In this document: positions 457-44,414 of the stretch, piece after piece
How the letters are laid out: the number at the start of each line of letters is the position of its first letter
Numbering within the stretch: the first letter of the stretch is position 1
IMG/VR virus record: IMGVR_UViG_3300003885_000006
Coordinates: 1-47,644 of that record
From: a virus
Direction: 5' to 3' (one strand)
Length of the DNA: 47,644 nt
Made by a program: the position numbers and the translations under genes
The notes under the pieces: model-generated
What the model saw: the letters and a program-made list of their open reading frames with translations, nothing else
Databases searched by the model: none
What the model was told of the DNA's origin: nothing

Positions 457-849
457 TTAGCCTCCTAAATGAACCCGAAACAAACAAGCCAACATCTTCC
501 TCTGTTCAATATTCCTAGCTTCATTCTTTACCTGAACCAATAAACTAGCAAGTTCCAAAGTTACTTTCTCTTTCTTTTCTATGATTTGTTCCAACTTAAT
601 CTTAACTTCTAAATAACTATTGAAAGTTATATTCTTTCTTTTTCTAACCAAATCTAGTAAGAACTTAACTTTTGGAGTATCTATCTGATTGAGTTCAAGA
701 AGTAATTTATGGTATTCTTTAAGGAGGGAGGTTGCTTGTTTCTCTACTTTGTTTCTTAGTTCCCAAAGCTCTGAAAGTTCCGTCTCAAGTTCTCTAAGCT
801 GGGAACTCTGTTGCATTGGAAGTTTTGTTAGTGCGGGTTTTAGATACAT
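457..849 (-). CDS. Hypothetical coiled-coil protein (130 aa)
   Basis: 130 residues, almost entirely helical with heptad-like Leu/Glu/Lys spacing over roughly residues 15-115, so a coiled coil is likely. Start 849 is chosen because GGAG lies about 11 bases upstream; the internal Met at residue 12 has no SD site. It is the first gene after the minus-strand sigma70 promoter at 906-934 and is followed closely by the 57-aa gene. No catalytic motif or membrane segment is visible. Function unknown. Confidence 0.7.
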   Translation of the reverse strand: MYLKPALTKLPMQQSSQLRELETELSELWELRNKVEKQATSLLKEYHKLLLELNQIDTPKVKFLLDLVRKRKNITFNSYLEVKIKLEQIIEKKEKVTLELASLLVQVKNEARNIEQRKMLACLFRVHLGG

Positions 850-905
850 TAAAGGGTAGCTCCATTATCAAATAGTTAATGTGTACTATGTAATAAAGTA
901 ACTAC

Positions 906-934
906 ATACTAGCATACAATTTAATGCTTGTCAA
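906..934 (-). promoter_or_regulatory. Sigma70-type promoter, leftward early genes
   Basis: Read on the minus strand: TTGACA (929-934), 17-bp spacer, TAGTAT (906-911) with an extended -10 TGC just before it. Transcription should start near 899, about 50 bases ahead of the 849 start codon. The AACACTTGACAAG context is shared with the promoters at 2537-2565 and 4028-4056. Confidence 0.75.
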
Positions 935-1199
935 GTGTTATTTTAGCTTAATATCAAGTTAATTAAAGTGTAATAAAATCAAGTAGTTACATATCTTATA
1001 TAGTTATAATTTAATTCTATACAGCTTGTAGATGTAGATAAGAGTAAGTGTAGCAATAAATAAGCTACTTGATATACAAACTAATAGTAGAGTATCAACT
1101 ACATTAAGAAAGTTGCTTAGGATTGATTACAGAGCCTTTGTTTATTTAGTACATACAAGAGAAGTGTAGTGATATATATGTTACTAGACTTAACAAAAG
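935..1199. other. Non-coding spacer
   Basis: Very A+T-rich with no convincing gene. It holds a 9-bp inverted repeat (ATCAAGTAG 978-986, CTACTTGAT 1065-1073). It also holds an 18-bp sequence at 972-989 that recurs, inverted, at 2706-2723 inside the loop of the 2676-2761 hairpin. Confidence 0.5.
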
Positions 1200-1230
1200 A
1201 AAACCCAGCCACAACAAGTAACTGGGTTTT
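1200..1230 (-). terminator. Rho-independent terminator of the 1258-1812 gene
   Basis: AAAACCCAG (1200-1208) pairs with CTGGGTTTT (1222-1230) across a 13-base loop. On the minus strand the stem is followed by a T-rich tail (TTTTCTTTTGTT), and it begins 28 bases past the stop codon. Confidence 0.8.
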
Positions 1231-1257
1231 CAATCTGCAATCTCAAAACTCGTTCAC

Positions 1258-1812
1258 CTACACATCAAACACGATACATTGACATGCCTGATTGATTGCA
1301 TTCATTTCCTCAACCGTCAAACTCTTAATATCTCTACCAGTGATTGACAGAGTTGCTTTGATGTTAGCAACCGTCTGAACTCTAAACTGTTCAGACGCTT
1401 TTGCAAGAGCCTCCCGGACTTTCTTTCCACCAGTTCCAACCCGTTTCCTGGTTTCCAGATAGGTTACCCAGTTGTCCTGAGTTACAACAACCTCAACCTG
1501 GGAAGCGTCAACGTCAACCTCCGCTTCGTTTGCTTCCTTGACAGCAGCTTTCAACGGAACTCTCAAAGCATTGGCTAGCTTGATTGTAACTGCCATATCC
1601 AATGTGTTGAACGTGGCAGAGCAACCAGCAACTTTCAGGAAAGCCAGGATGTTCGTGGGGAGTTCCAGGTTAGTTGTCACCTCGGCGTGGGTAGTCTCTC
1701 CCTCTGTATTTTCCCCAATTGCAGTCTTAGCCGAAATCTGCTTGGAGCTTAAATCACCCTCAACTAACTCATAGCCATCAATCAACTTCTGTAATTTTTC
1801 TAATCCAGTCAT
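1258..1812 (-). CDS. Hypothetical protein in a self-contained unit (184 aa)
   Basis: 184 residues, helical, moderately acidic, rich in Ala/Val/Glu/Thr, with no membrane segment or recognised domain. The start at 1812 has a near-perfect SD (AAGGTGGTGAT). The gene has its own sigma70 promoter (1850-1878) and its own terminator (1200-1230). Its codons are visibly richer in G+C than the flanking DNA, the architecture of a moron-type insertion. It could equally be an ordinary monocistronic early gene. Its clean expression signals suggest strong, early, independent production, but the function is unknown. Confidence 0.85.
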   Translation of the reverse strand: MTGLEKLQKLIDGYELVEGDLSSKQISAKTAIGENTEGETTHAEVTTNLELPTNILAFLKVAGCSATFNTLDMAVTIKLANALRVPLKAAVKEANEAEVDVDASQVEVVVTQDNWVTYLETRKRVGTGGKKVREALAKASEQFRVQTVANIKATLSITGRDIKSLTVEEMNAINQACQCIVFDV

Positions 1813-1849
1813 TTAGTATCACCACCTTTCGTTTTTAGATTATACATAC

Positions 1850-1878
1850 AGTCTAACACATTAAAATACGTTTGTCAA
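1850..1878 (-). promoter_or_regulatory. Sigma70-type promoter of the 1258-1812 gene
   Basis: Minus strand TTGACA (1873-1878), 17-bp spacer, TAGACT (1850-1855). The expected start is near 1843, giving a short leader carrying the AAGGTGGTGAT ribosome site. Confidence 0.65.
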
Positions 1879-1923
1879 GTATAAAATGTAGTATCAAGTA
1901 TAAATGTAGATGTAAATAAGAAT

Positions 1924-1940
1924 TGCAATATCTATGCCAA
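1924..1940 (-). promoter_or_regulatory. Sigma54-like -24/-12 element F
   Basis: Minus strand TTGGCATAGATATTGCA: GG and GC separated by exactly 10 bases, matching TGGCAY-N5-TTGCA. It is nearly identical to the element at 3667-3683. It lies upstream of the 1850-1878 promoter in the same direction. Confidence 0.5.
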
Positions 1941-1972
1941 TTTTAAACACATACAAGATACAAGATAGTATG

Positions 1973-2002
1973 ATTGAGATACATTGAGATACATTGAGAG
2001 GT
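1973..2002. repeat. Three tandem 10-bp repeats (ATTGAGATAC)
   Basis: Units at 1973-1982 and 1983-1992 are identical; the third at 1993-2002 differs at its end. One helical turn per unit is suited to cooperative protein binding. Confidence 0.7.
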
Positions 2003-2060
2003 ATTATGTAAACATGTTATTTATAAAAACCTAGAGAAAACAAGGAGATAGCAAGGTGCA

Positions 2061-2146
2061 ATGTGATGAAATGTACTTATAACAAGCTACAGAAACTCAA
2101 TAGAAACAATAACTTAATCAAATAACATAAGTACATTTAATTACAT
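2061..2146 (-). repeat. 21-bp inverted repeat with 44-base loop (module 1)
   Basis: Arms 2061-2081 and 2126-2146 match at 18 of 21 positions around a 44-base loop. The 2061-2081 arm is identical to the left arm of the 2676-2761 repeat. On the minus strand the hairpin begins 36 bases after the GC of the sigma54-like element at 2181-2197, the same spacing as in the second module. Confidence 0.75.
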
Positions 2147-2180
2147 TTAGAGCCAGTGTGTGCGTTTTTAAATAAATCTA

Positions 2181-2197
2181 TGCAAAAGACGTGCCAA
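2181..2197 (-). promoter_or_regulatory. Sigma54-like -24/-12 element I
   Basis: Minus strand TTGGCACGTCTTTTGCA fits the sigma54 consensus YTGGCACG-N4-TTGCW at every defined position. Downstream it shares further sequence (AAAAAC, then ACACAC, then GGC) with element B, then the module 1 hairpin. Confidence 0.65.
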
Positions 2198-2245
2198 GTT
2201 TTGTATCAAAATAAATATTTATTTTCTCGCTTAAAATACATAAAA

Positions 2246-2261
2246 TGGTATGAAACTTGCA
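2246..2261 (+). promoter_or_regulatory. Sigma54-like -24/-12 element A
   Basis: TGGTATGAAACTTGCA: GG (2247-2248), ten bases, GC (2259-2260), followed by TACA as in elements B and C. A small hairpin CTTAG-ATTT-CTAAG follows at about 2267-2280. Confidence 0.45.
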
Positions 2262-2359
2262 TACAGCTTAGATTTCTAAGTAGTTGTATTTATTAAGATT
2301 CCCTTTAGAATTAGAAGTTTATGTTTGTAGCCTGAATTTTACGGTTTTGATACTTGGTG

Positions 2360-2389
2360 TTAGAGTATTAGAATATTCTAATACTCTAA
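2360..2389. repeat. 30-bp perfect palindrome
   Basis: TTAGAGTATTAGAAT followed by its exact reverse complement, with no spacer. Such a site suits a dimeric or tetrameric DNA-binding protein or cruciform extrusion. It sits between the divergent sigma54-like elements I and B, a typical distance for an enhancer site. Confidence 0.8.
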
Positions 2390-2402
2390 TATAGACTAAA
2401 CT

Positions 2403-2452
2403 ATCTTCTTGTATCTTCTTGTATTTACTTGTATCTTCTTGTATTTACTTGT
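2403..2452. repeat. Five tandem 10-bp repeats
   Basis: Units ATCTTCTTGT (three copies) and ATTTACTTGT (two copies) in the order 1-1-2-1-2, directly beside the 30-bp palindrome. They could be iterons of an origin or a repeated operator. Confidence 0.75.
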
Positions 2453-2536
2453 ATTCTTAATACAGACACACCTCTCCCCTCCTATCTCCTATAGGAAGGA
2501 GAAGGTTAGGTTAGAATTTAGATAAAGTACAGATAG

Positions 2537-2565
2537 AGTATATTATATTTAAATACACTTGTCAA
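2537..2565 (-). promoter_or_regulatory. Sigma70-type promoter, leftward
   Basis: Minus strand TTGACA (2560-2565), 17-bp spacer, TATACT (2537-2542), with start near 2530. No gene follows directly. The transcript would cross the polypurine/pyrimidine stem at 2470-2505, the 10-bp repeats and the palindrome, so it may be a regulatory or origin RNA. Confidence 0.6.
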
Positions 2566-2624
2566 GTGTTATTTTCATCTGTAACAATCTTTTTTAATTT
2601 TGTAATGATGATTTATATACAAAG

Positions 2625-2641
2625 CTGGCACGAACCTTGCA
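2625..2641 (+). promoter_or_regulatory. Sigma54-like -24/-12 element B
   Basis: CTGGCACGAACCTTGCA is a textbook match to the sigma54 (RpoN) consensus: TGGCACG, four bases, TTGCA. The expected start is near 2652, ahead of the 2676-2761 hairpin. Confidence 0.7.
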
Positions 2642-2667
2642 TACACTCAGTCAAAAACAGACACACG

Positions 2668-2766
2668 GCCTCACAATGTGATGAAATGTACTTATACTTC
2701 ACACTTAACTACTTGATTTTATTCCCCTTTTCCTAGCTACTATAAGTACATTTCATCACATGAGGC
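2668..2766 (+). ncRNA. Hairpin RNA candidate with 21-bp perfect stem (module 2)
   Basis: Arms 2676-2696 and 2741-2761 are perfect 21-base reverse complements around a 44-base loop. The stem is extended by GCCTC (2668-2672) pairing with GAGGC (2762-2766) after a three-base bulge. It begins 36 bases after the GC of element B. It holds no reading frame. It is either a structured small RNA or, as DNA, a large inverted-repeat binding site. Confidence 0.5.
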
Positions 2767-2869
2767 ATAGCTAAGTTGTTGTATTTACTCATATTTTGTA
2801 ATTTGTAGGTTTACATAATCGGGTTAGCTACAATCAATTTTGTATAGGGGTTATCTACAACAAGATTAA

Positions 2870-2980
2870 AAGCTCCAAAAAGAGCGAGAACCCCCCCCCC
2901 CAAAGAAAAGCCCTCCCAAGTTCCGTACCAGTTTGTTGGGAGTTAACTGGCGTCTCGGAAAGGCTTCTCTTTTGGAGCTT
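2870..2980 (-). terminator. Large nested stem-loop downstream of the small-gene operon
   Basis: The outer stem is 2870-2884 with 2967-2980 (14 bp plus one bulged A). Nested pairs are AAGCC 2908-2912/GGCTT 2962-2966, TTCCG 2921-2925/CGGAA 2956-2960 and CCAGTT 2928-2933/AACTGG 2945-2950. A competing pairing is CTCCCAA 2913-2919/TTGGGAG 2936-2942. On the minus strand it follows the stop at 2987 and ends GGAGCTTTT, so termination is likely. Eleven C lie at 2891-2901. The nesting and the alternative fold also fit a structured RNA. Confidence 0.55.
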
Positions 2981-2986
2981 GAAAAA

Positions 2987-3136
2987 CTAAGCGAGCTTTA
3001 AAACGTCCTGAATATAGCCTAGTTTATACACAAACCATCTCATATTTCCTTTTCTCTTACAACATACAATGCTACATTTCACATTGTAGATTGATTGAGC
3101 TTGTTGCATGACTTGGAATGCTTTGGTTAGGGTCAT
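2987..3136 (-). CDS. Small hypothetical protein (49 aa)
   Basis: The frame starts at ATG 3136, overlapping the stop of the upstream 58-aa gene as ATGA, and ends 7 bases before the large stem-loop. The product is basic (MTLTKAFQVMQQAQSIYNVK) with an adjacent Cys pair (IVCCKRKG) in the middle. The overlap implies translational coupling. It is not a recognised family. Confidence 0.6.
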   Translation of the reverse strand: MTLTKAFQVMQQAQSIYNVKCSIVCCKRKGNMRWFVYKLGYIQDVLKLA

Positions 3137-3309
3137 TTGTAACAAGCCTCCCTAAATTTGGATGTGGTAAAGTTAGGGTTATTAAACGCAAGTACGTTGC
3201 ATAATTTATCAACTATATCTCCAAACATACAATCAGCGGCTGTATTGAGAGGCTTGCTTCTAACTGACCGCAAAGCTCTTGCGATTAAGATGTAGTCTTT
3301 TCTGCTCAT
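3133..3309 (-). CDS. Small conserved phage protein of unknown function (58 aa)
   Basis: Starts at ATG 3309 behind AAAGGAGGTGA, the best SD in this region. The sequence opens MSRKDYILIARALRS and closes FNNPNFTTSKFREACYK. It has the layout of a short protein seen in many phages (DYxxIAxAL ... NPxFxxxxFxxAC), recalled without a search. It is the middle gene of a three-gene minus-strand operon, 20 bases after the zinc-finger gene and coupled to the 49-aa gene. Role unknown; it is probably expressed early. Confidence 0.75.
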   Translation of the reverse strand: MSRKDYILIARALRSVRSKPLNTAADCMFGDIVDKLCNVLAFNNPNFTTSKFREACYK

Positions 3310-3329
3310 ATTACAAACTCACCTCCTTT

Positions 3330-3500
3330 CTATCTGTATCTATTTGCTTTTAACTTCTTAAAGCATGAGTAACAAATTACATACTTTTCTCTTGTTATCT
3401 TATTCTTAAGTGTTGTTCCTTGCATTCTATTGCCATAAGCTGTGGCCGTAAAACGTATTAACTTTTTGCAGTGCTTACAATGTATGTTTGTATTTAGCAT
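3330..3500 (-). CDS. Small zinc-finger protein (56 aa)
   Basis: Starts at ATG 3500 with GAGGG close upstream. Two CxxC pairs (CKHC near residue 8, CYSC near residue 44) in a Lys-rich background predict a zinc-binding nucleic-acid or adaptor protein. A promoter candidate at 3507-3536 would start transcription almost at the ATG, so the mRNA may be leaderless or made from farther upstream. It heads the 3500-2987 operon. No family name is assigned. Confidence 0.65.
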   Translation of the reverse strand: MLNTNIHCKHCKKLIRFTATAYGNRMQGTTLKNKITREKYVICYSCFKKLKANRYR

Positions 3501-3506
3501 ACCCTC

Positions 3507-3536
3507 ATTCTAGTATATATCAAGGTTGTATGTCAA
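3507..3536 (-). promoter_or_regulatory. Possible sigma70 promoter of the small-gene operon
   Basis: Minus strand TTGACA (3531-3536), 18-bp spacer, TAGAAT (3507-3512). The predicted start is within a few bases of the ATG at 3500, which weakens the call. Confidence 0.4.
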
Positions 3537-3666
3537 GTCCGGTTTAAGCCTGTTTAAAGCTATCTAAGCTACTCTAGCCTGTTTATCCTCTACTCTCTTA
3601 CATTCTCTTAGATTCTCTCTCATTCTCACTCTATCATAGCTATGATTGTAGCTATTGTAATAGATA

Positions 3667-3683
3667 TGCAATATCCATGCCAA
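3667..3683 (-). promoter_or_regulatory. Sigma54-like -24/-12 element E
   Basis: Minus strand TTGGCATGGATATTGCA, one base different from element F over this stretch. It points toward the 3500-2987 operon. A 7-bp hairpin (ATAGCTA/TAGCTAT, 3636-3655) lies just downstream. Confidence 0.5.
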
Positions 3684-3726
3684 TCCATAGCTACATAGCT
3701 ATGTAAGACGGCATGAAGGTTGTAAT

Positions 3727-3742
3727 TGCAAGAAGTATGCCG
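3727..3742 (-). promoter_or_regulatory. Sigma54-like -24/-12 element J
   Basis: Minus strand CGGCATACTTCTTGCA: GG and GC ten bases apart. It abuts element C (opposite strand), and a weaker plus-strand match (GG 3710-3711, GT 3722-3723) lies beside it, making a dense divergent cluster. Confidence 0.4.
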
Positions 3743-3756
3743 GTATAAATCTTGCA
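3741..3756 (+). promoter_or_regulatory. Sigma54-like -24/-12 element C
   Basis: CGGTATAAATCTTGCA followed by TACA, as in elements A and B. It is the last such element before the late genes. The transcript would start near 3767, cross the G10 tract (3792-3801) and read into the late operon. Confidence 0.45.
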
Positions 3757-3942
3757 TACAATCAGTGAGATAGAGAGTGAGAGAAGGGGTAGGGGGGGGG
3801 GTTTGGGTTGGAGTATATTTATATCTTATACAACCAAGAGTTAAAAATTTTCCAGACTAACCTATACAAATCTGTAGCCTCTATCCTTGTAGGTTACAAA
3901 CTTATAGAATATAAACTTCTCATACCTTATTATATAGGCTTG

Positions 3943-3981
3943 CAGCTACTTATTACAGCTACTCATTGCAGCTACTCATTG
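3943..3981. repeat. Three tandem 13-bp repeats (CAGCTACTCATTG)
   Basis: Units at 3943-3955 (two differences), 3956-3968 and 3969-3981 (identical). They end 47 bases before the -35 box of the late promoter, a plausible operator position. Confidence 0.7.
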
Positions 3982-4027
3982 TAAGTTATTGATTTCTTTT
4001 ACTTAACTATATAGTTACAAAAAACAC

Positions 4028-4056
4028 TTGACAAGCTTACTTATTTATGTTATGCT
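4028..4056 (+). promoter_or_regulatory. Sigma70-type promoter of the late operon
   Basis: TTGACA (4028-4033), 17-bp spacer, TATGCT (4051-4056), with start near 4063, 30 bases ahead of the first late gene. The AACACTTGACAAG context matches the leftward promoters. Confidence 0.75.
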
Positions 4057-4092
4057 TATCTTAACTACAGTTCAATTCAAGGTTAAAACAGA

Positions 4093-4656
4093 ATGGATGA
4101 CGTAAGAAAATACGATGCACTACCCGCAGACCAGAAGCACAAGCTCTCCACTAGAGACTGCCGCATCCAGCGAGTAGCTATTATGGAATCTTTGGGTATG
4201 TCCCCTAGGGAGATTAACAAAGCTACTAGAGGTTCGGAGAAACTTGCTCCAAGTACTACATACTACGATAGGAAACTAGCACACCATAAAGGATATGTAA
4301 AGAAAATCCAAGAGGGGATGAGAAACACAGCAATCAATCTTGTGGAAGAGAGAAGGATTTTGGCTGAGAGATGTTTTGGGATTGTAAATAAAAAAGCTCA
4401 GTCCATTTTGGAAAGCTCTGAGGAACTTGATTTAGCAACGGGAACTCAAAAAGGAATCAAACTAAAGGAAGCAGAATTTGCTTTAAAAGCTATTGGAGAA
4501 ACAGAACATTCAGGAAGAAAGACTGAGCCTCCAAAGGTCGTTGTAAACGTAATGAAAGAAGCTAGTTTAAATATACAACAAAACTTCCAAGAGATTGGAA
4601 GTATTTTGGATAGGGTTGGGCTGGGGTTTGGGGAAGTTATTGGGGCAGAAACTTAG
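4093..4656 (+). CDS. Terminase small subunit candidate
   Basis: 187 aa. Residues about 25-62 look like a helix-turn-helix (IMESLGMSPREINKATRG ... STTYYDRKL) that would bind packaging-site DNA. A helical middle (75-140) would suit ring oligomerisation and the C-terminal tail would contact the large subunit. It is the first late gene and the terminase large subunit lies two genes downstream, the normal order. Small terminases diverge quickly, so the call rests on position and HTH character; a regulator is the alternative. AAGG lies about 10 bases before the ATG. Confidence 0.65.
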   Translation: MDDVRKYDALPADQKHKLSTRDCRIQRVAIMESLGMSPREINKATRGSEKLAPSTTYYDRKLAHHKGYVKKIQEGMRNTAINLVEERRILAERCFGIVNKKAQSILESSEELDLATGTQKGIKLKEAEFALKAIGETEHSGRKTEPPKVVVNVMKEASLNIQQNFQEIGSILDRVGLGFGEVIGAET

Positions 4657-5034: not shown

Positions 5035-5059
5035 GAAGTTCAGACTCTGAACTTCTTAC
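5031..5059 (+). terminator. GTTCA-type hairpin (family member 2), 12-bp perfect stem
   Basis: GTAAGAAGTTCA, loop GACTC, TGAACTTCTTAC: a perfect stem whose left arm contains the TAA stop of the Tad1-like gene. There is no T tract, so attenuation, RNA processing or 3' protection between this gene and the terminase large subunit is more likely than full termination. Confidence 0.6.
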
Positions 5060-5099: not shown

Positions 5100-6779
5100 A
5101 TGGAAGAAACAGAAACAGGAGTAAAAGAGCAAGAAATAAATCGCCTCAAATCCATTCTAAGTCTCCCACAAGAGACATTATTGGATTTGGGGCTTACTCC
5201 TGATGATTTAGAAACAATCCAGGGTAAGTTAGTTCAAATAGAACGAAACTTACTGGAAATAGAGCAATACAAACAAGACAATAAGATTGAGGATTTCAGT
5301 CCGAACCCCCCTCAGTTAGAATTCCTTATTGCAACTCTTAATCCAGTATATATGATTTTCACCTACACTGGAGGTAATAGACGAGGCAAAACTTCATTAG
5401 TCACTACAATCTCAACCATAGCTGAAATGATTGGATATTATCCATTCATTTGGGAGTGTAAGAATAACGACGGGGATGTAATAAAAACTTGGGAGAAAGT
5501 TTACGAGGAAATCCAAGAGTGGGAAGGGATAACTTGGAGGTTTCATAAGAATATACCTGGAACGTTCCATCATAGCGAAAAACTGATTGAGCTAATCTTC
5601 CCCCATTCCCAGCCAAGAAGAATTAGAATTGTAGGTCAAGGCTGGGAAGACCACATAAAAGAAGTTATTGTTCCTGAGTTTTATAAGTGGTGGCCAAAGA
5701 ACAGACCGGTTACAATAAAAAAGAACATGATTGGGATTGAAGTCTGGTGGACTGATGTAGAAACACAATCCCAAGTTCGTATAATGAGTAATGACCAACC
5801 AGTAAGGAAGTTTGAGGGTTGGAGTGGAGATAGGGCAAAATATGATGAGCCGTGCAAACGGGAAGTTTACATTGCAAACGCTAGAGGGCTTGTAGATAGG
5901 GACGGCAAAGAATACTTTGCAATGACTATTCTGGGAGAAGCTTGGATTGACCGGGAAGTCATTAAGAAAAAGCTCCCAACAGGTAAAGCAGACCCCTCAG
6001 TCTATAACAATCATGGAACTATTTACGATAATGTAGGATTTGGATTAAGAAACCATAAGAGTATAGAAGTTTTTGCAAGTAAGTTAAGAGAAGATGAGAA
6101 ACAAGCTAGGATTTTAGGAATTCCAAGTTACTTGAGTGGAATTATCTTTTCAAGGTTTAAGCGTGAAACTCATTTAGTAGAACGGTTTAAAATTCCATTA
6201 GATTGGATGGTAGATATAGCTATTGATTACCACCCCAAGGTAGAGCAAGCTGTTCTTTTCATGGCTACTTCCAACTGGGGGCTAAAATATCTTGTAGATG
6301 AGATTTGGTGTCATGGGAATGTGGAAGAGATTGGTACACAGATTCTCAGCCGTGTGAAGATGAGACAGTACAGAGTTGGGAGAATAATTATTGACCCAGC
6401 TACAAAAGGCCAGGGAGAGAATGTTGCAATTGAGAAATCAGTGTATCAGAAATGGGAAGATTTCTTATTTAGGTTTGAGCATGTATTAGAAACTGGAAGT
6501 AAAAGGAGAACAGACGGAATTATCTTATGTAATGAGTTGTTGTATGGGTTAAATAAACAAGCTGGAGTTCTTGTTTTTGATGATTTAGTTAGATTCTTGT
6601 ATGAAATTGAAGGTTGGATGTATGATGAAAAGACAGCTAAACCTGTGGATAAAGATGACCACATGATGGAAAACTTTGGAAGGTTAGTCCTGTTAGATAC
6701 AACTTGGGAACCAGAAGAGTATGAGGAGTATTATTCTGAGTCAACAAGTAAGAATGCTAACTCTGTGACGGGGTATTAA
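5100..6779 (+). CDS. terL: Terminase large subunit
   Basis: 559 aa, usual length. The N-terminal ATPase has a variant Walker A, GGNRRGKTS (91-99), and an acidic pair in AKYDEP (about 246-251) that fits Walker B plus catalytic Glu. The C-terminal RNase H-like nuclease shows DIAIDY (372-377), IIIDPATKGQG (429-439) and a closing DKDDHMMENFGR. It pumps DNA into the prohead through the portal encoded two genes downstream. The ATG at 5100 lacks a clear SD and follows a long hairpin, so its translation may be limited or coupled. Confidence 0.93.
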   Translation: MEETETGVKEQEINRLKSILSLPQETLLDLGLTPDDLETIQGKLVQIERNLLEIEQYKQDNKIEDFSPNPPQLEFLIATLNPVYMIFTYTGGNRRGKTSLVTTISTIAEMIGYYPFIWECKNNDGDVIKTWEKVYEEIQEWEGITWRFHKNIPGTFHHSEKLIELIFPHSQPRRIRIVGQGWEDHIKEVIVPEFYKWWPKNRPVTIKKNMIGIEVWWTDVETQSQVRIMSNDQPVRKFEGWSGDRAKYDEPCKREVYIANARGLVDRDGKEYFAMTILGEAWIDREVIKKKLPTGKADPSVYNNHGTIYDNVGFGLRNHKSIEVFASKLREDEKQARILGIPSYLSGIIFSRFKRETHLVERFKIPLDWMVDIAIDYHPKVEQAVLFMATSNWGLKYLVDEIWCHGNVEEIGTQILSRVKMRQYRVGRIIIDPATKGQGENVAIEKSVYQKWEDFLFRFEHVLETGSKRRTDGIILCNELLYGLNKQAGVLVFDDLVRFLYEIEGWMYDEKTAKPVDKDDHMMENFGRLVLLDTTWEPEEYEEYYSESTSKNANSVTGY

Positions 6780-6780
6780 G

Positions 6781-7086
6781 ATGAAGATTCCAAAGAAAAT
6801 TAAGATTAGTTGTCATAAGTTTGAAGTTAAGTGGCGGGAGAAACTCTGGGACGATAGTGATAATAGAGGGTACTTTAAACCCTCAAAGGCTTGTATTGAG
6901 TTGGCAGAGGACATGCCAGAACAATATAAATTTGAGGTTTTTATTCATGAAGTAATAGAAGCAATTAAGTGGTCTTATAATTTAGATATAAAACATCAGG
7001 ACTTAATCGTTCTAAGTATGGAAATAGCCCAAGTCATCCAATCAATAGAAGAAGAAAAATGCCTAAAGAACAAGATAACAACTTAG
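6781..7086 (+). CDS. ImmA/IrrE-like metallopeptidase-fold protein (101 aa)
   Basis: 101 aa. Residues about 50-64 read EVFIHEVIEAIKWSY, an HExxE arrangement like the HExxH helix of small phage M78/IrrE-like zinc peptidases, where the third ligand is often Glu or His. The N-terminus (KIKISCHKFEVKW) and the C-terminal helix match the overall plan of these small proteins. It sits between terminase and portal, starts one base after the terL stop, and overlaps the portal start. A prohead protease role is possible but unproven; activity is uncertain because the second His is replaced. Confidence 0.55.
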   Translation: MKIPKKIKISCHKFEVKWREKLWDDSDNRGYFKPSKACIELAEDMPEQYKFEVFIHEVIEAIKWSYNLDIKHQDLIVLSMEIAQVIQSIEEEKCLKNKITT

Positions 7087-9047
7087 TTTCAATTCTCTCT
7101 ACCCAAAAACTTGAGACAATTGGAGACAACTGTACAGAAGAGTACCAAGAGGATATAAAAAGTAGGAGTGAATGGGACACTCAAAATGCAACTTTTCTGA
7201 GGCTTTTTGCTGGAAAAACAGACCCTAAAAGTATCCCAATGTTAGAGAACTCTAGCAATGTTGTAGTTCCTCTCCTTACAATTGCCTGTCTCCAATTCCA
7301 AGCTAGAGCGTATGATTCTCTTATTCCCTCCTCCACTGAAATTGTACGAGCTTTATCAACTGATGGAAAAACAGTGGATGAAGCAAACAGAGTAACCAAG
7401 CATTTAAACTGGCAATTGATGGAGGATATTCCAAGATTTGAGAAAGGAATGGATAAGTTATGTTTGAAACTTCCAATCTTTGGTTCTGCTTACAAGAAAA
7501 CATTTTATGACCACAGAAATAAAAAAGTAAACTCCCAATTAATTGGAGTAGAGCAACTTGTAACAAGTTACCACTGTGAGGAGTTGGAAACTTGTGAACG
7601 TACTACTCATATTATAGAATTAACTCCTAATGAAGTTGCTATACGAGAGAAAACTGGAATCTTTAAGAACACAAGTAAGCTACATAAGAACACTCTAGGG
7701 GAAGAAAAGAACAAAGAGATTCAACCTGGAACTCCCCACAGGATATATGAACTTAATAAAGTTAAAGAAGTTATAGATGATTTAGCTGGGATAGAAGAAA
7801 CTCCTTTCACCTCAGACAAGCCCAGAGTTTTCTTGGAGCAACACAGATTACTCAATCTTGATGGAGATGGAAATTACAGTAACATAGCTAAACCCTACAT
7901 AGTAACAGTAGATGAAGAGACTAAGTCTGTAGTTAGAATTGTAAGTAGGGAATACACGAATCCATTAACCAACGAAAAGGAACCCTGGAACTTCTTTACA
8001 GATTACAACTTCATCCCCAATCCAGAAAGCCACCTGAGCTTCGGTTTCGGTTTGATGCTTAGACACCTAAATGAAGCTGCTAACACAATTGTAAATGAAC
8101 TTACAGATGCTGGAAACTTTGCTAACATGCAGGCGGGGTTCATAAACTCCAAGAGCGGGATAAAAAAAGGAAGTTTATCATTCACTCGTGGAGAACTAAA
8201 ACCTATACAAGCTAGAACTGATGATTTAAAGAAGGATATTTACTTATTCAACTTTAAGCCTCCTTCTCCAGCACTCTTTTCTCTCTTAGGTTTGTTATAT
8301 CAATATGCTAAAGAAGTAAGCAGTGTAAGTGATGCAATGTTAGGTAAGCTCCCCGCTTCGGATACAACAGCCACAAGTTTTATGGCTGCTATGGAACAAG
8401 GACTCAAAGTTTTTAGTGTGATTCATAAGAGATTGCATAGGAGCTTTAAAGAGGAGCTTAAAAAAATCTTCCTGCTTAATAGTTTATACTTACAGGAAAA
8501 AGTTTACTTCGCTGTCCAAGATTCATCACGCACCAAGTTTACTTCTTATTCTAGTGGAAAGAGCGACTACAGTAGCAATATAGATGTAATCCCAACTAGT
8601 GACCCAACTAAGATAAGTAGGATAGAAAGAATCAATAAAGCCCAAGGAATACTCCAGTTTGTTAAAGAAAGTCCATTACTTAATAAGAATCTAAAAGCTG
8701 AGTATGAAGCAACTAAAATGGTTCTGGAAGCAAATGATGTTCCAAACATTCAAGATATTTTACCCTCTGAGGATGAGTTAGAACCAACAGAATTTTCTCC
8801 TGTGGAGGAGAACGCAAGGTTCCTGCAAGACCTAAATAGCCCAATTCTTCCAACTCAGAATCACATGGAACACCATCAAGTCCACATTGAGTTTCAGGAA
8901 AGCCAATTTGGAGATTCATTAACCCCAAACGGGAAGAATATATTGGAAGCTCATTTAAGAGAAACTCTTTCCAATATGTACTTACAACAGATTCAGCAGG
9001 AACAAGGTCAAGGTGGAGAGATTGGAGTAGAAGATGGATTGGGGTGA
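7059..9047 (+). CDS. Portal protein
   Basis: 662 aa, in the range of large podovirus portals. It begins inside the preceding gene (ATG 7059). The N-terminal half has the soluble alpha/beta composition of portal wing and clip regions. Residues about 335-400 resemble the portal stem and crown helices (LMLRHLNEAANTIVNELTDA, then GRLPAS-like GKLPASDTTATSF), and the C-terminus is Gln/Glu-rich. It would form the dodecameric channel at the capsid vertex for DNA entry and exit. The call combines size, position after terL and composition. Confidence 0.85.
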   Translation: MPKEQDNNLVSILSTQKLETIGDNCTEEYQEDIKSRSEWDTQNATFLRLFAGKTDPKSIPMLENSSNVVVPLLTIACLQFQARAYDSLIPSSTEIVRALSTDGKTVDEANRVTKHLNWQLMEDIPRFEKGMDKLCLKLPIFGSAYKKTFYDHRNKKVNSQLIGVEQLVTSYHCEELETCERTTHIIELTPNEVAIREKTGIFKNTSKLHKNTLGEEKNKEIQPGTPHRIYELNKVKEVIDDLAGIEETPFTSDKPRVFLEQHRLLNLDGDGNYSNIAKPYIVTVDEETKSVVRIVSREYTNPLTNEKEPWNFFTDYNFIPNPESHLSFGFGLMLRHLNEAANTIVNELTDAGNFANMQAGFINSKSGIKKGSLSFTRGELKPIQARTDDLKKDIYLFNFKPPSPALFSLLGLLYQYAKEVSSVSDAMLGKLPASDTTATSFMAAMEQGLKVFSVIHKRLHRSFKEELKKIFLLNSLYLQEKVYFAVQDSSRTKFTSYSSGKSDYSSNIDVIPTSDPTKISRIERINKAQGILQFVKESPLLNKNLKAEYEATKMVLEANDVPNIQDILPSEDELEPTEFSPVEENARFLQDLNSPILPTQNHMEHHQVHIEFQESQFGDSLTPNGKNILEAHLRETLSNMYLQQIQQEQGQGGEIGVEDGLG

Positions 9048-15496: not shown

Positions 15497-15520
15497 AAAA
15501 AGTTTAGAGTCTGAACTTTT
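15497..15520. terminator. GTTCA-type hairpin (family member 3)
   Basis: AAAAGTTTA (15498-15506), loop GAGTC, TGAACTTTT (15512-15520); nine pairs with one G-U. The loop is the reverse complement of that in member 2, so the element is in the opposite orientation. Confidence 0.5.
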
Positions 15521-15538
15521 GGAACAAGAGGTATAAAA

Positions 15539-29437: not shown

Positions 29438-29447
29438 TTCTTATTCC

Positions 29448-29470
29448 AAAAGTTCAATCTCTGAACTTTC
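29448..29470. terminator. GTTCA-type hairpin (family member 4) in the convergence zone
   Basis: AAAGTTCA (29449-29456), loop ATCTC, TGAACTTT (29462-29469), 11 bases after the last late gene. About 30 bases here are identical to member 5 at 40694. The position suggests bidirectional termination of the two converging operons. Confidence 0.6.
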
Positions 29471-29478
29471 TTCCAACA

Positions 29479-29659
29479 TTAAGGCCAAGTCAACCAATCT
29501 GCCGCTTCCTGTAGTTCCTTATCTTGTGAATCTAACAAGGCAAGTAGTTTATTTCTCAAATGCCGAAAAATCTTCTGCAACGAAAATAACTACTGGAACT
29601 TGGTCAAGCCCATCTGGAATTAAGTCTCCCGGCACTATATAGTATCCATACTTCTTCAT
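29479..29659 (-). pseudogene. Small frameshifted gene remnant at the end of the minus operon
   Basis: A 36-codon frame starts at ATG 29659 (AAGGAG nine bases upstream; MKKYGYYIVPGDLIPDGLDQ) and stops at 29549. A second frame, open from about 29587 to 29479, reads on with a coding-like helical sequence ending KELQEAADWLTWP but lacks a good start. An upstream extension of the first frame is also open. The picture fits one gene broken by a frameshift, or two tiny overlapping genes. It lies after the 83-aa gene and before the shared hairpin. Confidence 0.35.
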
Positions 29660-37033: not shown

Positions 37034-37129
37034 CTATTCACCTCCTGTTCTGTTATTTACTTGTAAAAGACATATAATAAAAATACCTAGAAAAGTTCCA
37101 ATGAGCAATCCACACAGAAAATCAATCAT
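37034..37129 (-). CDS. DUF3789-like single-span membrane peptide (31 aa)
   Basis: 31 aa from ATG 37129 (AGGAGG seven bases upstream; ATGA overlap with the methyltransferase stop). FLCGLLIGTFLGIFIICLL forms one membrane helix, then VNNRTGGE. The pattern (short start, G-rich helix, Cys-Leu-x-x) is like the tiny DUF3789 phage peptides, recalled not searched. Role unknown. Confidence 0.65.
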   Translation of the reverse strand: MIDFLCGLLIGTFLGIFIICLLQVNNRTGGE

Positions 37130-37518
37130 ATTACTCCCTCCTGCAGCAACCTACTGTAAACATCCAAACCTCTCTCCTCTGCAAACACTCTATACTCTTT
37201 CTTAATCTCACTTGCATGGATTGCCAACCTCAATTCTAAAGCTGCTTGAATGGACGCTCCACAGCCACAGAAGGGGTCAATCACAACATCTCCAGGAAGA
37301 CAAGAACGCTCCATCAAGTTCTTATACACACTTACAGGAAACTCAAGTGGGTGTCTTTTCTTACTTGGTTCCACCATTCTTTCTATAATCACATTTGGTT
37401 GCCCCATCTTTACAAGTCTTTTCTTGGTTCCCTTGTTGAAAGCCATTAGGCATGGTTCATACACCATAGCTGGATGAAACTCAGGTTGTTGGGTTGAACC
37501 TATTAAGGGTTGTTTCAC
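37126..37518 (-). pseudogene. ParB-methyltransferase, C-terminal part after frameshift
   Basis: Continues the gene at 37481-38521 in another frame. The coding sense starts upstream of the GTG at 37518 (HPLIWVKQPLIGS if one C is removed from the six-C run). It holds the target-recognition and AdoMet parts: MVYEPCLMAFNKG, RHPLEFPVSVYKNLM and DVVIDPFCGCGASIQAAL (motif I). The order motif IV then motif I is that of beta-class N4-cytosine/N6-adenine methyltransferases. If the shift is not a sequencing error, this half alone cannot be active. It ends by overlap with the DUF3789-like gene. Confidence 0.7.
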
Positions 37519-38521
37519 CCAGATTAATGGGTGGGGGGTAGATAGAGAAGTCGCAGGCTTTGAGGATGTAAGTTAGGAGTTCCAGGGCTCTGAAAGAAAA
37601 GAACATATAGAGATGTGAACCGGGTTTTAGAACCCTAGAGAGTTGGATACAAACTTCCACCATTAATTCTCTGTATTCCTGCTCTAAATCTTTATTTTCA
37701 TACACTCCTTCCTGTCTCCCTTTCATAGCTTCAATTTTTATCCCAAAAGGAGGGTCAGCTACACAATAATCTATAGAGTTGTCTGGAAGTTGAGATAGCA
37801 TCTCTTGGGCACTGCTGTATATTTGAAAAGGTAAAATAGTTGGGATGGCTTCATGTTTAACTCCTTGGATTGTTATTTCTCTATCATATCCAGCTGCACT
37901 TGGACTAGGCCAGTCTATTATTCTTTTATTCCTAGTTTTTATTCTTTGTCTCTCCCTCAAATTCTTCTCTTCCACCAAAACCTGAACCTTCTTCTTCCTA
38001 ATCTCCTCGTAAGCTCCTGTTACTCCAGATTGGAGAATTAGAGTTGGAGTGGTAGAGAGTTCAAAATATACACAGAGTTCCATACTGGTTAAACCTTTAG
38101 ACTGCCCCAGAAGCTCTGAGAACTCTTCTTGGGTGTATTTCTTATTCTGTTGGGTTAAAGTACACCAAATATCCCCCTTGAGTTGTACTTCTTCAAACCA
38201 GGTAAAATTCTTACGTCTAAGGTTTTCATCTAGTTCCAAGAGTTGAGCTTGTTCTTTGGAGACTTCTGGGAAGATTGTGCATTCAACTTCGTAGTCTGGG
38301 CCGTAGAGGTCTAGGAGAGCTGTGTAACGACGGGCACCACAGAGGAGTTTGTAAGATTCCTTTCCTTCTATTGTAGTAACTCTAACAAGATTAGGAGCAA
38401 CAGCCAAAGGATTAATCAACCCATTAACTCTAATAGACTCCTTTAAGTTCTCAAACTCTAAATCTTTCTTAACTTGTCTGGTTCTATTCTCCACTAGTAT
38501 GTTCTTAAGTTGTATTTTCAT
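37481..38521 (-). pseudogene. ParB-like nuclease domain fused to DNA methyltransferase, N-terminal part
   Basis: Start 38521 is chosen for AGGAGC seven bases upstream. Residues 1-110 are ParB/sulfiredoxin-like: LKESIRVNGLINPLAVAPN, KLLCGARRYTALLDL and QLLELDENLRRKNF. From about 215 a methyltransferase begins, with DYCVADPPFGIK (motif IV DPPF). The frame then closes at 37481, 60 bases after a run of six C (37533-37538), while the expected HPLIWVK sequence continues in the next frame. Removing one C restores a single protein of about 460 residues. Such fusions modify phage DNA. It may be sequencing error, mutation or phase variation. Confidence 0.75.
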
Positions 38522-38529
38522 TCTTGCTC

Positions 38530-38664
38530 CTATCCACACTGGCAACCAAAAGGTTCTACAATGCAGATACAAAGTCTGTTACAGATTGGGAAACAACTTC
38601 CAATGTAGTAGATACTGGAAACCAACAACAGGAATAAAATACAAAGCCTCAGTTTCAGTCTCAT
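38530..38664 (-). CDS. Small Cys-rich exported peptide candidate (44 aa)
   Basis: 44 aa from ATG 38664 (GGGGTTGAG upstream, ATGA overlap with the preceding stop). A basic start (MRLKLRL) and hydrophobic core (CILFLLLVSSIYYIGS) look like a signal peptide, followed by a tail with six Cys (CFPICNRLCICI ... CQC). IGSC could act as a weak lipobox. No family is recognised; an envelope-targeted toxin-like or spanin-like peptide is possible. Confidence 0.5.
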   Translation of the reverse strand: MRLKLRLCILFLLLVSSIYYIGSCFPICNRLCICIVEPFGCQCG

Positions 38665-38904: not shown

Positions 38905-39594
38905 TTATTGGCCTTCTCTTAACAAAGCACAAATTCTATCCAACCCACAAGCTATTTCCAATACAGGGCAGTCAAAATCTGTTCTATTACTTATCCCAAC
39001 TATTTCACAATTTTCAACGTAAATATCAGTAGTTTTAATAGAATAATGGGGCAATTTATCTTTTGGAATAATTATTTTAACGGGATATGCTCCTGGGAGT
39101 AATCTACCTAAATACTTAATTAAACTACTTGCTATATGTTGATGATAATCAACCTTGGTATCTTCTGTATAAACCAACTGATACTCAAGTTGATAGAATT
39201 CTTTGAACCGTAATTCAGAAAAAGGTCTGGTTTGTTCATTCCTATAGCTCTTGCCCACCTGCCAAATACAAACAGGAAGTGCCTTTTTAAGCTGAGATTC
39301 TTGGGGGTAGATTAACTTTAAGGCTTCAAACGTTCCTCGTGTTGTCTCTGGTCTTAGATATAGCTTATTAGCTTTGATTAATTCAAACCCAGTGTCTATA
39401 TGAGATTGCAAATATTCAGCCGGAATTAGGGTAGGGGTTTCAACCTGGACAAATTTAATGCCAGGGTTGATACCCCTCAAAATCTGCTTTAGCCTGGAGG
39501 TAATTAACCTGACTGTACTCTCTCTAAGTAGAAGGTCATATTCGTCATACCAGACAAGTCCGTGGGGATAATTTTTAGGCAGAAATGGCTTCAT
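38905..39594 (-). CDS. Glycyl-tRNA synthetase-like class II catalytic core
   Basis: 229 aa. Class II aminoacyl-tRNA synthetase motifs resemble alpha2 GlyRS: KLYLRPETTRGTFEALKLIY (80-99), motif 2 QVGKSYRNEQTRPFSELRFK with EFYQLEYQ, and motif 3 LEIACGLDRICALL (about 213-226). The anticodon-binding domain and the N-terminal insertions of a real GlyRS (over 400 aa) are absent. The protein may ligate an amino acid to a non-tRNA target, modify a host factor or act as a paralogue regulator; aminoacylation of tRNA is doubtful. SD AGAGGT. Confidence 0.8.
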   Translation of the reverse strand: MKPFLPKNYPHGLVWYDEYDLLLRESTVRLITSRLKQILRGINPGIKFVQVETPTLIPAEYLQSHIDTGFELIKANKLYLRPETTRGTFEALKLIYPQESQLKKALPVCIWQVGKSYRNEQTRPFSELRFKEFYQLEYQLVYTEDTKVDYHQHIASSLIKYLGRLLPGAYPVKIIIPKDKLPHYSIKTTDIYVENCEIVGISNRTDFDCPVLEIACGLDRICALLREGQ

Positions 39595-40561: not shown

Positions 40562-40693
40562 TTTTGCCTCCCCTCCTAGTTTAGTTATCCCCTGGTAAGT
40601 CAGGTATCAAGTTATTAGCAGATAACATGTACCTAACTCGGTGCAGCCCCCCACACCGGGGCAAATTGTAATCTATATTTAAATTCTAACCCC

Positions 40694-40716
40694 AAAAGTT
40701 CAATCTCTGAACTTTC
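40694..40716. terminator. GTTCA-type hairpin (family member 5)
   Basis: AAAGTTCA (40695-40702), loop ATCTC, TGAACTTT (40708-40715). It lies in the 311-base gap between the membrane protein and the DUF669 gene, with flanks identical to member 4. Confidence 0.6.
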
Positions 40717-40738
40717 TTCCAGAACTAATCAACTTATA

Positions 40739-43988: not shown

Positions 43989-44414
43989 TTAAATGTCTTG
44001 GGAATCATAAGCTGGTTCACATAAACAATTAACCCAGCATAAACCACAATCTTCACAAGTTTCTGTCTTAAACTGGTCTTGTTTTAGTGTATTCATACTT
44101 TGACTTCGTTTTATAGTAATTGTATCTCCATTATAAGACCATTTTAATGGAAATGGTAAGAATGTTTTTCTATTTTGTCCCTCAATAGCTATTTCTAAAT
44201 CTTGTAATATACTCCAAAACCCCTCTTTAATCTTTTCATCTTCAAACTTAATTAGGATTCGGTTGTGTCTCTTTTTACTCTCACAGAATTTACAGATAAA
44301 TTTACCATGAGCTACACAACAGCCAGGTATTTTATCTGTGCATTCTCTAGGCATTTTATCTGTGCATTCTCTAGGCACTATAATCATCTTGTTGTTACAA
44401 TTTGAACAGTTCAT
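43989..44414 (-). CDS. Cys-rich zinc protein with internal tandem duplication (141 aa)
   Basis: 141 aa. MNCSNCNNK and FICKFCESKK form one CxxC pair set; CEDCGLCWVNCLCE near the C-terminus adds another cluster. Residues about 15-32 contain an 8-residue duplication (PRECTDKM-PRECTDKI) from an exact 24-bp tandem repeat at 44329-44376. SD AAAGGAG. It precedes the nuclease gene. Possibly a zinc-ribbon nucleic-acid or protein-binding adaptor. Confidence 0.7.
   Translation of the reverse strand: MNCSNCNNKMIIVPRECTDKMPRECTDKIPGCCVAHGKFICKFCESKKRHNRILIKFEDEKIKEGFWSILQDLEIAIEGQNRKTFLPFPLKWSYNGDTITIKRSQSMNTLKQDQFKTETCEDCGLCWVNCLCEPAYDSQDI
44329..44376. repeat. Exact 24-bp tandem duplication inside a gene
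   Basis: Two adjacent identical 24-base units (44329-44352, 44353-44376) in frame, adding eight residues. Identity implies a recent slippage or duplication event. Confidence 0.85.

Follow-up and report, generated by a model that had tools for sequence, protein, structure and literature searches.

The window, by which we mean the whole stretch of DNA that was analysed, is a whole 47.6-kb virus record (47,644 nt, linear). Its plus strand carries a packaging/structural arm with the TerL-like and portal genes, its minus strand a replication arm (Table 1). Between the two arms, at ~1.8-4.1 kb, lies a long and mostly non-coding control region that holds two hairpins, A and B. This AT-rich region includes palindromes and tandem 10-mers, and the genome's skew switches within it. 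Between the modules that carry the hairpins, a perfect spacerless 30-bp palindrome (2360-2389) adjoins five tandem 10-mers (TATCTTCTTG / TATTTACTTG; 2402-2456). Three small minus-strand ORFs at 3500-2987, one of which encodes a 56-aa CxxC...CxxC protein with a Com / zinc-ribbon look, are followed by a terminator-like structure on the same strand (~2915-2872).

Elsewhere in the window, a palindromic element GTTCA(G)A..TCTGAAC recurs at the ends of gene blocks (1-25, 5036-5057, 15497-15529, 29438-29482 and 40684-40728), and is probably a terminator or a protein site. A 229-aa protein (38905-39594, minus) resembles the core domains of class II aminoacyl-tRNA synthetases weakly and below threshold. 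A ParB-like domain and a DNA methyltransferase domain (37126-38572, minus) are apparently split across two overlapping frames. In addition, a 24-bp tandem duplication, 96% identical, sits within an ORF at 44325-44372. Genes for sigma54, a sigma54 activator or IHF/HU are not encoded in the window, and searches with ORF 1258-1812 or ORF 4093-4656 as queries found no relatives.

Table 1. Features of the control region and the adjoining packaging/structural arm; promoters and binding sites are predictions.
Feature	Position	Strand	Remarks
Sigma70-like promoters with a CTTGACAAG-like motif	934, 1878, 2565	minus	
Sigma70-like promoter with a CTTGACAAG-like motif	4028	plus	
Stand-alone copy of the loop B IHF site	965..989	minus	23/25 match, no hairpin; upstream of the sigma70-like promoter 934 (minus)
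Sigma54-type promoter D	1924..1939	minus	~100-nt leader to ORF 1812-1258
TTATGTAAAC box, outer end of copy A	2004..2013	plus	identical in copy B
Copy A arm 2	2060..2080	minus	20/21 identical to B arm 2
IHF-like core of loop A, TAAGTTATTGTTT	2104..2116	minus	one mismatch to YAANNNNTTGATW; predicted bend centre 2103.5
Copy A arm 1	2127..2147	minus	19/21 pairing with arm 2 (inverted repeat I4); 19/21 identical to B arm 1
Sigma54-type promoter A, TGGCACGTCTTTTGCA	2181..2196	minus	exact consensus; predicted start ~2170, leftward
Sigma54-type promoter C	2246..2261	plus	diverges from A, 49 bp separating the boxes
Sigma54-type promoter B, TGGCACGAACCTTGCA	2626..2641	plus	exact consensus; predicted start ~2652, rightward
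Copy B arm 1	2676..2696	plus	perfect 21-bp inverted repeat I3
IHF consensus of loop B, TAACTACTTGATT	2706..2718	plus	exact; AATCAAGTAGTTA on minus; predicted bend centre ~2718.5-2719
Copy B arm 2	2741..2761	plus	pairs 21/21 with B arm 1
TTATGTAAAC box, outer end of copy B	2809..2818	minus	identical in copy A
Sigma54-type promoter E	3667..3682	minus	upstream of small minus-strand ORFs 3500-2987
Two overlapping divergent sigma54-type boxes, one palindrome	3727..3756	3742 minus, 3741 plus	one mismatch each
Packaging/structural arm	from 4093	plus	
TerL-like gene	5100-6779	plus	in packaging/structural arm
Portal gene	7059-9047	plus	in packaging/structural arm

A preliminary description of this DNA had noted sigma54-like promoters in front of the hairpins. 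The window holds five exact occurrences of the pattern TGGYAYRN4TTGCA against 0.04 expected, and all five fall inside 1924-3682 (1.8 kb), with GG and GC at the fixed spacing of TGGCACG-N4-TTGCW. Promoters A and B have zero mismatches to TGGCACGN4TTGCA, the -24/-12 box of both copies being the consensus TGGCACG-N4-TTGCATA; the sigma54 consensus of D. vulgaris is tGGcacg / tTGCt (PMC4641369). The two boxes at 3727-3756 overlap head to head, so that only one could be occupied at once. Since sigma70-like promoters are present alongside the sigma54-type boxes, both polymerase forms may serve the control region.

The hairpins belong to two diverging copies, A (minus, 2212-2003) and B (plus, 2611-2819), that represent one inverted duplication. 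A BLAST search of the region against itself matched 2003-2212 to 2611-2819 with 69% identity including gaps, and MAFFT aligned the copies over 206 bp without a single gap (131/206 identical, 64%). The homology is ~210 bp long, more than initially described, and ends in GTTTACATAAT at 2003/2819. As had been claimed, the geometry is fixed: counted from the predicted start, arm 1 occupies +24..+44, arm 2 +91..+111 and the TTATGTAAAC box +158..+167 in both copies. The 21-base repeat with a 44-base loop, initially ascribed to both, is exact in B (21/21 pairs, 44 nt), whereas A pairs at 19/21 positions around 46 nt; with the shared ACTTAT/ATAAGT edges as reference, 46 nt lie between the arms in either copy. 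The short motifs AAAAAC and ACACAC coincide as stated, and GGC, also reported at matching positions, is off by one base (TGGCTC vs GGCCTC).

Identity between the copies is unevenly distributed. The box, the arms and the TTATGTAAAC box are 90-100% identical, including TGGCACG (7/7), the 7 bases of TTGCATA and the end block GTTTACATAAT (11/11), compared to 20/46 (43%) in the loop and 23/44 in the tail. Such identity in the box, arms and end block, free of indels and set against 64% overall, indicates selection on these elements, and zero indels in 206 bp despite such divergence suggests that spacing matters. The longest exact inverted repeat spans 21 bp, whereas 200 dinucleotide-shuffled versions of the non-coding region gave at most 15 bp. 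Moreover, the 17-bp core of the arms, with 0.21 matches expected, occurs in the window solely in these four arms, which have no clear internal dyad. The duplicated module is real and beyond chance, and, judged from the sequence, the sigma54-type promoters and a single conserved unit of fixed geometry are well supported.

The loops had been described as different, which holds for their overall identity; however, they are homologous, with 14 of the middle 19 nt identical against 6/27 in the remainder. Clustering of this kind arose in 40 of 5000 trials in which matched columns of the loop were shuffled, and in 4 of 3000 in which loop B was shuffled. A scan for IHF sites found the consensus WATCAANNNNTTR in this conserved part, exact in loop B and with one mismatch in loop A. 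In the IHF-DNA co-crystal (H' complex), the DNA is bent around a point about one base away from the WATCAA end of the consensus, and placing the bend centres by this rule brings them onto the loop midpoint in both copies (2103.5 in A, 2718.5 in B). Strict IHF sites number four in 801-4092, among them the site at 965-989, against 0.39 in shuffled sequence, and 0 of 300 shuffles reached four. Because the consensus is conserved and centred, and a hairpin-free near-copy is found at 965-989, the core of the loop resembles a DNA site, to which IHF would bind.

Boxes, arms, spacing, duplication and a consensus IHF core are all present at the locus. We propose that each module is a sigma54 promoter with a downstream paired operator folded by IHF, duplicated for leftward and rightward transcription, and give this reading a probability of about one half. 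Host sigma54 RNA polymerase would bind each -24/-12 box, downstream of which two ~20-bp protein-binding sites would lie in mirror orientation at +24 to +111. Host IHF would bind midway and fold the DNA such that the mirror sites come to lie opposite one another, where a single dimeric or multimeric protein could hold both. Whether the promoter fires would then depend on this complex, which would be a downstream enhancer used by a host sigma54 activator, or else an operator; the regulator could also be a phage protein. As the module is present once per direction, a common signal would control transcription to the left and to the right at once. That sigma54 and IHF bind here, that a protein binds the arms and in which sense it regulates are inferences.

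The folded operator agrees with the concentration of conservation in the box, arms, loop core and end box. On the other hand, the arms have no clear internal dyad, the window encodes no sigma54, sigma54 activator or IHF/HU, no relative was found to carry the arm-IHF-arm module, and both transcripts would also fold as hairpins. At sigma54 promoters, IHF usually binds upstream, in the interval from the activator site to the promoter. This classical order of the IHF-assisted enhancer (activator site-IHF-promoter) differs from that found here, with the IHF consensus downstream and between the arms. Of the two readings offered by the preliminary description, the better fit is a promoter followed by an inverted-repeat operator, and a hairpin RNA with an interchangeable loop is unsupported.

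An RNA reading would have promoters A and B produce two leader or small RNAs, each folding into a stem of 20-21 bp with a loop of 44-46 nt and serving as an antisense, processing or antitermination element. The stem of B is perfect (folding z -9.2), that of A has a z of -3.3, and both begin at +24 of the predicted transcript. However, over a longer stretch the A transcript barely beats shuffled sequence (z -1.5), and the six further pairs that lengthen the B stem (GCCTCA/TGAGGC) are missing from A. The two stem differences between A and B are uncompensated, which weakens the reading, although covariation is poorly judged from two sequences. In addition, the conserved part of the loop is the DNA consensus of IHF, also found hairpin-free. 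A covariance model of the module, the kind of search that the preliminary description had called for, was run across 70 sources (~0.69 Mb of related sequence) and recovered the window alone with no convincing relative, which gives the RNA reading no backing from comparison; nor was there an Rfam match. A weak match in L015 (E 0.69) falls on its IHF-like site without further support and was discarded, and neither the exact stem core nor arm-gap-arm patterns had matches in viral contigs. Loop B matches the minus strand at 989-965 in sense and is thus not antisense to a leftward transcript; a role as antisense to the leader of ORF 849-457 was rejected on that ground and because the site lies upstream of the promoter of that ORF. 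Altogether, we consider an RNA element unlikely.

In another reading, a terminase or an initiator would bind the arm-IHF-arm, much as in R3-I1-R2 of lambda cosB, the inverted pair would flank a packaging site or origin, and the promoters would either be neighbours or supply transcription. In lambda cosB, IHF is used to bring two TerS sites face to face (PMC4856287). Both copies end in TTATGTAAAC, which in relatives is part of an IHF / TCTGATAA / TTATGTAAAC site between the TerS-like and TerL genes, and the AT-rich region with its tandem 10-mers, palindromes and skew switch is also in line with this reading. The TTATGTAAAC 10-mer is found just past the TerS-like gene in at least seven relatives, in an aligned block of an IHF-like site, GTCTGATAA and TTATGTAAAC, and the IHF site precedes TTATGTAAAC by exactly 39 bases in three of them. 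Since this block looks like a packaging-site element, a packaging role stays under consideration. Nevertheless, a cos site would not be expected to come in two inverted copies, the TTATGTAAAC boxes of the window have no adjoining TCTGATAA, and the 10-mer alone has, by our estimate, a ~2% chance of occurring in the region. Moreover, inverted arms around the IHF-like site of relatives, promising by eye, were not significant after shuffling and were dropped, skew in the window follows gene direction, and the fixed spacing to the promoter is left unexplained. We regard a packaging or replication site as rather unlikely.

The intergenic site of relatives deserves description in its own right. Eight loci (L011, L012, L015, L018, L019, L024, L027 and L096) share an IHF-like site, GTCYGATAA and TTATGTAAACTTT between the TerS-like and TerL genes, several with a C- or G-run and TATATATAG further downstream. 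This conserved site is a candidate packaging site of the phage group. A conserved, apparently structured non-coding segment (GCCCGG...CGCCCACTGRAATGGTGGGGTAAMGGATAAACAGAC...) lies between the same genes in L015 (~1170-1360), L018 (~7565-7790) and L021 (~900-1080); it has no Rfam match and could be an undescribed phage RNA. ORF 4093-4656 was considered as a possible TerS, and hhalign detected no homology to the TerS-like proteins of relatives (probability 0.4%).

A combination of both roles, in which an IHF-folded DNA hairpin would be operator and packaging/replication site at once, coupling a life-cycle step to host sigma54 status and gating bidirectional sigma54 transcription with one kind of nucleoprotein complex assembled once for each direction, appears a long shot. 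Finally, phage control regions frequently duplicate, and only two copies without orthologues were found, yet it is very unlikely that an intergenic promoter was simply duplicated as a segment, carrying a hairpin by accident and arms without function, given arms, box and end block that are 90-100% identical against 64% overall in an indel-free 206 bp.

The best terminase relatives of the window are 42-53% identical, so that non-coding DNA is unalignable. Bacterial contigs with related terminases are labelled as Deltaproteobacteria, Desulfarculaceae and Desulfobacterales MAGs, and two such MAGs have 34 and 35 matches to sigma54 activators, compared to none in ten phage records and the window. 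The phage probably infects sulfate-reducer-type bacteria, and the likely hosts of its relatives are Desulfobacterota. Among 24 related loci, 33 divergent gaps contain five sigma54-like boxes, against a mean of 0.44 for permuted consensus sequences, of which 0/300 reach five. The boxes are enriched in divergent gaps upstream of TerL, yet in a minority of loci. L019, L027, L122, L129 and L135 each have a box facing the leftward genes, and L019 has a further divergent pair. As such boxes recur in the divergent gaps of relatives, sigma54 use at this spot is probably a lineage trait, though most loci have no recognisable box. A divergent sigma54 pair pattern had two matches in viral contigs, both within coding sequence and judged to be chance.

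Phages are generally described as relying on the main sigma factor or on their own. A limited literature search found no described case of a phage with several host-sigma54 promoters in its central control region; such promoters would tie phage expression to host activators, i.e. to nutrient or stress state.

Among known systems, phage leader RNA hairpins for antitermination or processing share the stem-loop soon after a promoter, but here covariation is lacking, the loop core is a DNA-bending consensus and the promoter is of sigma54 rather than sigma70 type. Lambda cosB, whose IHF bend turns two grooves towards one another to receive a dimeric protein (PMC4856287), resembles the proposed module, in which two predicted protein sites lie around a predicted IHF bend, in a phage genome and near terminase genes. 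By contrast, the window has two inverted copies, each tied to a promoter, and no identified cosN, and its arms may bind a protein other than TerS. The closest parallels in promoter type are the sigma54 (RpoN) and IHF promoters of the orp1/orp2 and nif/NtrC kind, with TGGCACG-N4-TTGC boxes, an IHF consensus nearby, the likely host group and divergent promoters in common; IHF is known to work together with sigma54 promoters in this bacterial group, as at D. vulgaris orp1/orp2 (PMC7962754). They differ in that the promoters described here are phage-borne, with at least five within 1.8 kb, and the predicted IHF site and paired sites lie downstream of the start, with IHF midway between mirror arms instead of separating an upstream enhancer from the promoter. 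A downstream sigma54 enhancer has a precedent in rocG (PMC3844500), and an arm-IHF-arm arrangement downstream of a sigma54 start would represent an unusual regulatory geometry that is directly testable.
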